Assembly (NCBI RefSeq): GCF_039533965.1
Contig: NZ_BAAAUN010000001.1
Coordinates: forward strand, 2,082,950-2,146,949
Origin: Microbacterium luteolum
Lineage (GTDB): Bacteria > Actinomycetota > Actinomycetes > Actinomycetales > Microbacteriaceae
DNA: 64,000 nt
Reading direction: 5' to 3'
Numbering within the stretch: the first letter of the stretch is position 1; the number at the start of each line of letters is the position of its first letter. Below, in pieces: positions 56,594 to 59,529 of this stretch. Under the pieces are notes generated by a model. The model saw only the letters and a program-made list of their open reading frames with translations. It did not search any database and was not told where the DNA came from. The position numbers and the translations under genes are program-made.

Positions 56594-57223
56594 TCACGGC
56601 GCGACGATGAGGCCCTTCGTCGCCGTGCGTGCAGCCGCGAACCGACGCTGCACGTCCGGCCAGTTCACGAGCTCCCAGAACGCCTTCACGTAGTCGGCGC
56701 GCACGTTGAGGTAGTCGAGGTAGTAGGCGTGCTCCCACACGTCGAGCTGCAGCAGCGGCGTGACGCCGAGCGGTGCATTGCCCTGCTGGTCGAAGAGCTG
56801 GAAGATCACCGGCCGCGCGCCCACGGAATCCCAGGCGAGCACGGCCCAGCCGGAGCCCTGCACGCCGAGTGCCGTGGCGGTGAAATGCGCACGGAAGGCG
56901 TCGATCGACCCGAACGCGTCGACGAGCGCGGCCTCGAGCTCGCCTTCGGGAGCCCCGCCGCCCTCGGGCGAGAGGTTCTGCCAGAACACCGAGTGGTTGA
57001 TGTGGCCGCCGAGGTTGAACGCCAGGTCCTTCTCGAGCTTGTTCACGTTCGCAAGGTCGCCGGCGCTGCGTGCCGTCGCGAGCTGTTCGAGCGCCGTGTT
57101 CGCGCCGGTGACATAGGCCTGGTGGTGCTTCGAGTGGTGCAGCTCCATGATCTTGCCGGAGATGTGCGGCTCGAGCGCGGAGTAGTCGTACGGGAGCTCG
57201 AGGAGCGTGTAGAGAGCGGACAT
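56594..57223 (-). CDS. sodA: Superoxide dismutase, Fe/Mn family
   Basis: The 209-residue enzyme has metal ligands His29 ([10 protein letters not shown] region), His77 ([10 protein letters not shown]), and the Asp and His of [12 protein letters not shown]. It converts superoxide to peroxide and oxygen in the cytoplasm. The metal cannot be set with certainty; Mn is common in actinobacteria. AAAGGAAG precedes the ATG. It lies 12 nt downstream of the flavin-reductase gene, at the end of a run of redox genes. Confidence 0.95.
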
Positions 57224-57235
57224 GGTGTCTTCCTT

Positions 57236-57745
57236 TCAGAGGTGGGTGTCGTGCGGCAGAGGGTGGAAGCGGCGGTCGAGGTAGACGAGCGGTCGCCCGG
57301 CTGTTCCGGGAAGCACCTCGAGCACCTCGGCGATGACCACGGTCGACGAGCCGACCGGCACGGTCTGGATGGGCCGGCACCGCAGCGCGACCCGGGCTTC
57401 CGCGAGGTGCGGCTCACCGGTCGGCAGCGTCGCCCATCCCTGCTCCGTCGTGAACCGCTCGGAGCCGCTGACCGCGAAGGTCTGCGCGAGAGCGGAGTGG
57501 TCGTCGTCGATCAGGTGCACGACGAAGGAGTCCGCCGCGAGGATCGCCCCGGCGCTGCCGGTCGCACGGGTCACCGAGAACACGATCGCGGCGGGATCGA
57601 CGGCCACCGACGCGACGCTCGACGCCGTGAGCCCGACCGGACCATCCGGGGTGTTCGCCGTGATGATCGCGACCCCGGCGGGGTGCGTGCGGAATGCTGC
57701 CTTGAGCCCTTCGCCGATCGGCGTGGGCACGGGTGCCGTGTTCAT
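57236..57745 (-). CDS. Flavin reductase family protein (FMN-binding split barrel)
   Basis: The 169-residue protein has the flavin-reductase fold: FRTHPAGVAIITANTPDGPV, GLTASSVASVAVDPAAIVF and FVVHLIDDDHSALAQTFA. It reduces FMN or FAD with NAD(P)H, or serves a monooxygenase. It overlaps the ferredoxin reductase gene by 4 nt. Together with ferredoxin it looks like one electron-transfer unit under redox control. Confidence 0.9.
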   Translation of the reverse strand: MNTAPVPTPIGEGLKAAFRTHPAGVAIITANTPDGPVGLTASSVASVAVDPAAIVFSVTRATGSAGAILAADSFVVHLIDDDHSALAQTFAVSGSERFTTEQGWATLPTGEPHLAEARVALRCRPIQTVPVGSSTVVIAEVLEVLPGTAGRPLVYLDRRFHPLPHDTHL

Positions 57746-59106
57746 CGAGCGATCTCCATCCTCTGTCCCTGCGTGGCATGTTCGAGCATCTCCGCGCGAT
57801 CGACGATCTTGGTGCGCTCGCGTCCTCGTTCGGCTCCGGCGCCGCGTTCCGCGGCATCGATCCGCAGCCAGCCGTTGAGATCGACGGCGTGCGCGAGGTG
57901 GCCGATCGGATCATCGTCGTGGGCCTCGCGTACATCGTCGGCAGCCGCGAGATCGTCGACGAGGTGGCCGACCGTCTGGGCGGCATCCGATTTGGTCGAG
58001 CCGATGAGGCCGACCGGTCCCCGCTTGATCCAGCCCGTGGCGTAGAGCCGCGGAATGGGCGATCCGTCGACATCCACCACGCGGCCCTCGATGTGCGGAA
58101 CGACGCCCGGATCCGCGGCGAACGGCACCCCGGGAACCGGCGTCGACCGATATCCCACAGCACGGTAGACGGCCCCGACGTCGTAGCGCAGCAGCTCCCC
58201 GGTGCCGACCATGCGGCCCAGCTCGTCGGATGCCGTGCGCTCCATCTCGATCCCGATGACCCTGTCCGTGCCGAGCAGTCGGACCGGACGCTGCCGCAGA
58301 TGCAGGTGGATGCGGCGCGAGCCCGTGCGGTCCGCCGGATCGAGCGCGGCCCACTCGGTCAGGGTGCGCACGATGATGCGGCGCTGCGTGAACTGCGCCA
58401 CCATCCGCTCGGCGTGCGCGTCGAGAGCGAGCTCCTCGGGGTCGACGATCACATCGACGTCGTCCTGCTCGGCCAGCTCCCGCAGCTCCATCGCGGAGAA
58501 GCGCACGTCGGCAGGACCGCGTCGCGCAAAGAGGTGCACATCGCGCACTGGGCTCGCAGCGAGACCGTCGAGCACCGCGTCCGGGGTGTCGGTGCGCGTC
58601 AGCGCCGAGGCGTGCTTCGCGAGGATCCTGGTGACATCGAGCGCCACGTTGCCGGCGCCGAGCACGGCGACCGACTCGGCCGCGAGCGGCCAGGTGCGCG
58701 CCGTGTCCGGGTGCCCGTCGTACCAGGCGACGAACTCCGCCGCACCGAACGATCCCGGCAGGTCGATGCCGGGGATGTCGAGTGCGACGTCGAGGTCGGC
58801 ACCCGTCGCGATGATCACTCCGTCGTAGGCTGCGCGGAGCGCGTCGACCGTGACGTCGACGCCGATCTCGACATTGCAGCGCAGCCGGATGCGGGGATTC
58901 ACGAGCACATCGTGCAGCGCGTCGGTGATCTTGCGGATGCGTGGATGATCGGGGGCGACGCCGTACCGGACCAGCCCATACGGTGCGGGGAGCTTCTCGA
59001 AGAGGTCGATCGAGGCGTGCGGCACGCGCCCGAGCAGGATGTCGGCGGCGTAGATGCCGGCAGGTCCTGCCCCGACGATGGCGATGCGTGGTTCGGCGAT
59101 GGTCAT
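57742..59106 (-). CDS. fprA: Ferredoxin/flavodoxin-NADP reductase (FprA, adrenodoxin-reductase type)
   Basis: The 454-residue enzyme has an N-terminal FAD site IAIVGAGPAGIYAADIL and NADP site VAVLGAGNVALDVTRIL. PYGLVRYGVAPDHPR and the C-terminal ATGWIKRGPVGLIGSTKSDA are diagnostic of the FprA/adrenodoxin-reductase family. It passes electrons from NADPH to the ferredoxin encoded just upstream, with which it overlaps by 4 nt. The C-terminal tail after about residue 400 is family-typical. Confidence 0.95.
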   Translation of the reverse strand: MTIAEPRIAIVGAGPAGIYAADILLGRVPHASIDLFEKLPAPYGLVRYGVAPDHPRIRKITDALHDVLVNPRIRLRCNVEIGVDVTVDALRAAYDGVIIATGADLDVALDIPGIDLPGSFGAAEFVAWYDGHPDTARTWPLAAESVAVLGAGNVALDVTRILAKHASALTRTDTPDAVLDGLAASPVRDVHLFARRGPADVRFSAMELRELAEQDDVDVIVDPEELALDAHAERMVAQFTQRRIIVRTLTEWAALDPADRTGSRRIHLHLRQRPVRLLGTDRVIGIEMERTASDELGRMVGTGELLRYDVGAVYRAVGYRSTPVPGVPFAADPGVVPHIEGRVVDVDGSPIPRLYATGWIKRGPVGLIGSTKSDAAQTVGHLVDDLAAADDVREAHDDDPIGHLAHAVDLNGWLRIDAAERGAGAERGRERTKIVDRAEMLEHATQGQRMEIAR

Positions 59107-59429
59107 GCGTGCGCTCCTTGCGGCGGAAGGGCGGCGACGACGGGGTGGTCGAACGACAGCATCGCCGTCTTGGCGGCGCCTCCCGGCGATCCGATCTCGT
59201 CGAAGAACTCGACGTTGGCCTTGTAGTATTCCTGCCACTCGTCGGGCAGGTCGTCCTCGTAGTAGATCGCCTCGACGGGACACACGGGTTCACAGGCGCC
59301 GCAGTCGACGCACTCGTCCGGGTGGATGTACAACGAGCGTTCACCCTCGTAGATGCAGTCGACAGGGCACTCGTCGATGCAGGCCTTGTCCTTCAGATCG
59401 ACGCACGGCAGGGCGATGACATAGGTCAT
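59103..59429 (-). CDS. Seven-iron ferredoxin [3Fe-4S][4Fe-4S]
   Basis: The ferredoxin has 108 residues from the ATG at 59429. Cysteines 9, 17, 21 and 25 and the cluster C40-x2-C43-x2-C46-x3-C50-P match actinobacterial 7Fe ferredoxins, which begin MTYVIALPC. It is the partner of FprA downstream. A GTG at 59492, 6 nt after the -10, could add 21 residues in frame. An ATG at 59494 opens a separate 22-codon frame ending on this start. The promoter carries a SoxR-like box. Confidence 0.93.
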   Translation of the reverse strand: MTYVIALPCVDLKDKACIDECPVDCIYEGERSLYIHPDECVDCGACEPVCPVEAIYYEDDLPDEWQEYYKANVEFFDEIGSPGGAAKTAMLSFDHPVVAALPPQGAHA

Positions 59430-59498
59430 CGAGTGGTCTTCGTTCGGGTCACGCCATCCTCGTTCGGGTCGATCGGCCCTCGTCGGAGCCACATGACC

Positions 59499-59529
59499 AA
59501 CCTAAAACCTCAAGCGCAGTTGAGGTCAA
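59499..59529 (-). promoter_or_regulatory. SoxR-like MerR-type promoter of the ferredoxin operon
   Basis: On the minus strand, TTGACC (59529-59524) and TAGGTT (59504-59499) are exactly 19 bp apart. The spacer holds CCTCAA-N6-TTGAGG (59508-59525), the same half-sites as the E. coli soxS SoxR box. This geometry is the hallmark of activation by a redox-sensing MerR protein. No soxR gene is in the window. Confidence 0.85.

Follow-up and report, generated by a model that had tools for sequence, protein, structure and literature searches.

A predicted SoxR-dependent promoter ahead of a ferredoxin, FprA, flavin reductase and superoxide dismutase operon in Microbacterium luteolum

Introduction

The outputs of the SoxRS system of enteric bacteria comprise superoxide dismutase (SOD), an NADPH-ferredoxin/flavodoxin reductase, an electron carrier and efflux. 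In other bacteria, SoxR is generally regarded as sensing redox-active antibiotics and controlling a small number of genes. Within the 64,000-nt stretch of the Microbacterium luteolum genome analysed here (‘the window’), a promoter containing a SoxR-like dyad is followed, in order, by genes for a ferredoxin (fdx), an NADPH-ferredoxin reductase (fprA), a flavin reductase-like protein (FR) and an SOD (sod). An earlier note on this DNA had proposed a SoxR switch driving a single chain from NADPH through ferredoxin to flavin, with SOD as the last gene of a compact defence unit, and had pointed to searches of the genome for soxR and for further copies of the dyad. The locus therefore raises two questions: whether SoxR acts directly on these genes, and whether their products form one pathway.

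Results

The promoter lies on the minus strand, with a −35 element TTGACC at 59524–59529 and a −10 element TAGGTT at 59499–59504. The 19-bp spacer between them holds CCTCAAGCGCAGTTGAGG, a perfect dyad CCTCAA-N6-TTGAGG at 59508–59525 (assigned to neither strand), which is the predicted SoxR box. This anatomy, already described in the earlier note, is present in the sequence and conserved in relatives: all 32 promoter-boxes aligned from congener genomes, those of MFS genes included, had ≤1 mismatch to the dyad, the same 19-bp spacing and a −10 element of the form TANNNT, and 31/32 had TTGAC at −35. The half-sites CCTCAA and TTGAGG are presumably those of the E. coli soxS box. The sequence CCTCAAGtttgCTTGAGG is given as a SoxR site in the accessible part of PMC4521836.

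The exact dyad occurs once in the window, versus 0.0015 copies expected from base composition or 0.0007 from a first-order Markov model, and three times in the 4.14-Mb host genome, versus 0.094 or 0.044 respectively, both genome-wide expectations being computed with the composition of the window. No copy with exactly one mismatch was found in the host genome, and sites with ≤2 mismatches were not enriched there (30, versus 45 for the backward pattern); at least one site with ≤2 mismatches arose in 58/100 shuffles of the window. Counting boxes at two mismatches performed no better than this backward control and was dropped. Because loose copies are not enriched, only the exact dyad, with its place in the promoter, is taken as evidence. 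A scan for promoters and terminators, whose promoter model covers spacers of 16–18 only, found nothing; the lack of a predicted terminator after sod, like the lack of enrichment of loose boxes, is counted against the SoxR reading. Just upstream of the promoter is the end of a long open frame, glycoside-hydrolase-like by eye; no soxR is found there.

All four genes lie on the minus strand. The first, fdx (59103–59429), encodes an FdxA-type ferredoxin of 108 aa with 8 Cys (NF045480, 190.1 bits, cut-off 125), predicted to be of the 7Fe type, with PDB matches to 2v2k (E = 4e-51) and to the 7Fe ferredoxin 1bc6 (E = 4e-28). The product of fprA (57742–59106; 454 aa), an NADPH-ferredoxin reductase of the FprA/adrenodoxin-reductase type, reached no NCBIfam cut-off, but matched PDB 1lqt, which we take to be the FprA of M. 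tuberculosis, over residues 8–442 (E = 8.7e-81), and adrenodoxin reductase 1cjc (E = 4.8e-78). FR (57236–57745; 169 aa) is flavin reductase-like by family PF01613 only (115.9 bits, cut-off 27), falling below the HpaC/RutF/FerA NCBIfam equivalog cut-offs (best 77.5 bits, cut-off 200). The last gene, sod (56594–57223; 209 aa), carries both SOD domains (PF00081, 114 bits, cut-off 27; PF02777, 115.2 bits, cut-off 20.9) and best matches 8bhx among PDB SODs (E = 1.2e-94); it reaches no NCBIfam equivalog cut-off, so that it is assigned to the Fe/Mn SOD family only. It is the second SOD of the host genome, 70% identical to the other copy at C1:136492. Frames overlap at fdx/fprA and at fprA/FR, and the gap between FR and sod is about 12 bp. 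Family and PDB matches thus bear out the gene run, with SOD last, that had been named from the sequence.

The fdx frame is also open further upstream (59430–59492), as far as a GTG at 59492, close to the expected transcription start, and a longer, leaderless ferredoxin beginning at that codon is possible. In relatives, however, the ferredoxin match begins at the ATG (59429).

A search of the host genome returned a single SoxR above the TIGR01950 cut-off (about 179 bits, 179.4 / 179.2, versus 116.9). This protein of 146 aa (C1:2862428–2862868) aligns over residues 8–144 to E. coli SoxR 2zhg (E = 7.8e-40) and has the four cluster cysteines (CIGCGC...C; CIGCGCLSLKAC, aligned with CIGCGCLSRSDC in 2zhg). 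It has Leu at the position equivalent to E. coli Arg127, which adjoins the cluster; Met, Leu or Ile occupy this place in the 106 SoxR copies (70 different) read from the loci. In work by Sheplock in 2013, the residue at this place reportedly tunes viologen sensitivity. The SoxR of S. coelicolor answers neither paraquat nor superoxide, according to the accessible part of PMC5288332. Given the residue at the Arg127 place and the behaviour of S. coelicolor SoxR, phenazines and quinones are expected, by analogy, to be better inducers than paraquat, which may be a poor test for this SoxR. In a SoxR tree the host protein grouped with that of congener G074 (100/98; 96% identical), apart from 57 SoxRs encoded beside fdx or FR, although some branches are long, so that deep forks are unsure.

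The search for further boxes gave three exact copies in all, the two outside the window preceding MFS transporter genes. One (C1:2503380–2503397) lies in the promoter of an MFS gene whose product reached neither listed efflux equivalog cut-off. The other adjoins soxR, whose start codon follows 17 bp after it, while an MFS gene and a reductive-aminase-like gene lie on its other side, pointing away from it. The reductive-aminase-like gene, which encodes an NAD(P)-binding protein (PF03446, PF21761; L033 3–860), follows this second MFS gene and perhaps belongs to the same SoxR unit. The predicted SoxR set of the host would accordingly comprise the operon in the window and these genes of the soxR-box and MFS loci. 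The idea of a compact defence unit holds in so far as the operon is a putative SoxR-switched redox-defence operon; it would not be the whole predicted response, as two MFS genes also carry the box. In MFS1 promoters the ATG follows the −10 element by about 7–9 nt (L032 2363–2402; L140, L143, L147, L149, L150, L156, L157), and the mRNA of a predicted SoxR-driven MFS1 transporter gene may for this reason be leaderless.

Across 119 congener genomes, the promoter-box, sought as TTGACCTCAA-N6-TTGAGGTNNTA with ≤1 mismatch, was found in 25 and the backward pattern in none (0/119). SoxR was above the cut-off in 27/119; all 25 box genomes were among these, and the box was present in 0/92 genomes lacking such a SoxR (Fisher 1e-23, a value that overstates independence since the genomes are related). 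Two SoxR-positive genomes, G034 and G084, had no box at this threshold and are counted against the SoxR reading. The box preceded fdx and/or FR in 21/25 box genomes, and only an MFS1-type gene in G042 and G077. SOD was present in all 119 congeners, with two copies in 16/27 SoxR-positive versus 2/92 SoxR-negative genomes (Fisher 6e-11); one copy lay inside the box operon in 15 of those 16, and on another contig in G065.

In two congeners, G085 (L139 1805–1822) and G096 (L136 5040–5057), the box stood before no gene recognised by the queries. Both are counted against the SoxR reading, and the genes behind these boxes are possible further SoxR targets. A second SoxR was found in G021, G039, G059, G076 and G095. 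Of these, G021 (L138, L157) and G095 (L130, L156) were inspected; both have two SoxRs from separate lineages, encoded respectively next to the fdx operon and next to MFS1, and the box is the same at the two places.

A search with FR gave 240 confirmed homologues, and the loci of the best 80 were examined; these lie in Microbacterium, Leucobacter, Agromyces, Leifsonia, Okibacterium and two family/phylum-level records. A box was scored as ≤3 mismatches to the 31-base promoter pattern, ≤2.4 kb upstream, and the backward 31-base pattern was found in 0/80. Among these best 80 of 240, 59 loci had the box, 16 (all with FR alone) did not, and five were cut at a contig end. Box loci with soxR were arranged as fdx-fprA-FR-SOD (21), fdx-FR-SOD (15), fdx-FR (7) or FR-SOD (7), and those without soxR nearby as fdx-fprA-FR-SOD (3), fdx-FR-SOD (1) or FR alone (5). 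Still within the best 80, the box was present at 54/54 uncut loci where FR was accompanied by soxR, fdx, fprA or SOD, and at 5/21 with FR alone. The 16 boxless loci, which are also those of more distant FR homologues (62–67% identity), are counted against the SoxR reading.

The adjacency of soxR is variable. It was not found in the stretch around the kept box in five congeners, the host included (G000, G065, G074, G082, G115), where SoxR is instead encoded beside MFS2 (G000, G074) or MFS1 (G065, G082, G115); the box has thus been kept under SoxRs of different lines. Four FR loci in which fdx or SOD is also present (L168, L170, L176, L185) likewise keep the box without adjacent soxR, and one of these, L185, is from Microbacterium sp. 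TPD7012, the closest relative (FR 96%). It could be argued, from the missing local soxR and from the grouping of the host SoxR with that of G074, which is encoded beside MFS2, that the host uses SoxR for drug efflux alone and that the box of the operon, inherited from an ancestor, no longer has a function there. We regard this as improbable: the dyad is perfect, the −35 element, spacing and −10 element are intact, and the box persists without adjacent soxR in the four other congeners and four FR loci just named. The SoxR switch on these genes, as claimed in the earlier note, is strongly supported in silico by the single host SoxR, the tracking of SoxR by the box across the congeners and this retention.

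The proposed single electron chain, leading from NADPH by way of FprA, FdxA and FR to flavin, with SOD as its last member, fared worse. In its favour is the order fdx-fprA-FR-sod with overlapping frames, found at 25/80 loci (best 80 of 240), of which one is truncated by the end of its contig. However, of the 43 box loci retaining both soxR and fdx (best 80 of 240), 22 have no fprA, other box loci are without fdx or without sod, and FR is also found with the box but with no other partner. Reductases of family PF01613, moreover, normally draw their electrons straight from NAD(P)H.

Loci from outside the family also speak against the chain. In an order-wide survey of 297 genomes the promoter-box (≤1 mismatch) was found in 63 genomes, representing 27/94 genera, and the backward control in none. 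One locus of about 3 kb or less from each of 30 of the 63 was examined for the query genes, with matches to SOD (10), fdx (6), fprA (2), soxR (14), MFS1 (7) and MFS2 (8), and to no query in five. FR matched in 0/30 of these loci, and so the notion of FR as a universal core, true of loci found with the FR query, was abandoned. In 19 of the 30 loci checked for the gene directly behind the box, this was of a type found in the window operon in 11, MFS-type in six and unassigned in two. The 11 loci, from three families other than that of the window, are variously arranged: SOD alone behind the box (L242, L257, L260, L261); SOD and fprA divergent, with a box each (L263); SOD and fdx with a box each (L265–L268, the second boxes of L266 and L268 having two mismatches); and fdx behind the box (L264, and L255, where SOD and fprA follow with no FR match). 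Arrangements this varied would hardly be expected if all were relics of a single ancestral operon. By the arrangements compared, fprA, fdx and sod are separable modules, sod, fdx and fprA having boxes of their own elsewhere in the order, and the single chain was given up as highly improbable.

Ownership of the box by another activator of the MerR family, a metal or drug sensor, was disfavoured as the least probable account: the family shares the design of a dyad in a 19-bp spacer and the host genome has 15 MerR_1 matches, but only SoxR-positive congeners have boxes, whereas 117/119 have weaker MerR-type hits with the SoxR model, soxR adjoins the box in 16 of the 21 genomes with fdx and/or FR behind it, and the next-best host match to the SoxR model, at 46 bits, is far under the cut-off of 116.9.

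Discussion

We consider it likely, from genomic comparison, that a SoxR-dependent promoter drives this four-gene redox-defence operon. SoxR, made from its unlinked locus, would occupy the dyad, inside an overly long spacer of 19 bp. Redox-cycling compounds would oxidise its [2Fe-2S] cluster, whereupon the DNA would be distorted, the −35 and −10 elements brought to fit RNA polymerase, and the operon fired; activation by [2Fe-2S] oxidation, with altered promoter binding and opening by RNA polymerase, is established for SoxR (PMC5288332, in its accessible part). FprA and FdxA would pass electrons from NADPH to iron-sulphur or other acceptors, FR would reduce a flavin or quinone-like substrate, the extra SOD would remove superoxide made by redox cycling, and the two MFS pumps with the same promoter-box would probably export the compound.

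Several elements of this arrangement are already known, namely SoxR without SoxS, a SoxR box at an SOD gene and an actinobacterial SoxR regulon. The sodBII gene of Agrobacterium is reportedly under SoxR. The operon recalls E. coli SoxRS in its half-sites, as we understand them, and in its classes of output (SOD, ferredoxin reductase, electron carrier, efflux). It differs in that the E. coli response passes through SoxS, whereas here the box is on the effector operon itself and no SoxS step would be needed, and in that the host FprA is of the adrenodoxin-reductase type, not the type to which we take E. coli Fpr to belong. E. coli fpr is under SoxRS according to the accessible part of PMC4521836. 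In S. coelicolor, likewise, actinobacterial SoxR acts directly on a few genes with a promoter box, its six targets comprising an ABC transporter, oxidoreductases, a monooxygenase, an epimerase/dehydratase and a quinone-oxidoreductase-like gene; in contrast to the present operon, the terms ‘superoxide dismutase’ and ‘ferredoxin’ do not occur in the accessible text of that report (PMC4146615). S. maltophilia has a SoxR box directly at its SOD gene sodA1 (PMC6479884) and an MFS pump, mfsA, under SoxR (PMC6479884; PMC4411124), but it is Gram-negative, and the accessible parts of these papers describe single genes, with no operon containing ferredoxin, FprA and flavin reductase. Arthrobacter, an actinobacterium, similarly has soxR without soxS (PMC4326396, PMC3534580), and a direct action of the SoxR regulon on the superoxide response has been suggested in general terms (PMC4326396), although box, operon and target genes are not named in the accessible parts of the two papers. 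No description of this operon, or of actinobacterial SoxR boxes on SOD, ferredoxin and FprA genes, was found in searches of openly licensed papers.

How SoxR might be reset in these bacteria is a separate matter. The host genome gave no match to RseC (PF04246) or to an RnfC-type protein (TIGR01945), both of which were detected in the E. coli control. A tentative and rather doubtful proposal is that, in these actinobacteria, the role of the missing system for reducing SoxR falls to SoxR-induced FdxA, fed by the FprA of the operon or a housekeeping one. Electrons from NADPH would then re-reduce the [2Fe-2S] cluster of SoxR, setting the duration of the response, in place of membrane Rsx/RseC. For this reading is the presence of an FprA homologue, another or the same, with E <1e-100 in 118/119 congeners (G038, 44% complete, having a weak match); against it, fprA is missing from many of these box operons. 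If true, SoxR would switch on its own off-switch, and the operon offers a concrete candidate for the resetting of SoxR in a genome with no match to RseC or RnfC.

The predicted regulon is small and testable, in cultivable Microbacterium. Within a single order of actinobacteria, in four or more families and in varied gene arrangements, genes for SOD, ferredoxin and ferredoxin reductase have SoxR boxes immediately in front of them, and this distribution suggests that the textbook output of SoxS can be wired straight to SoxR.
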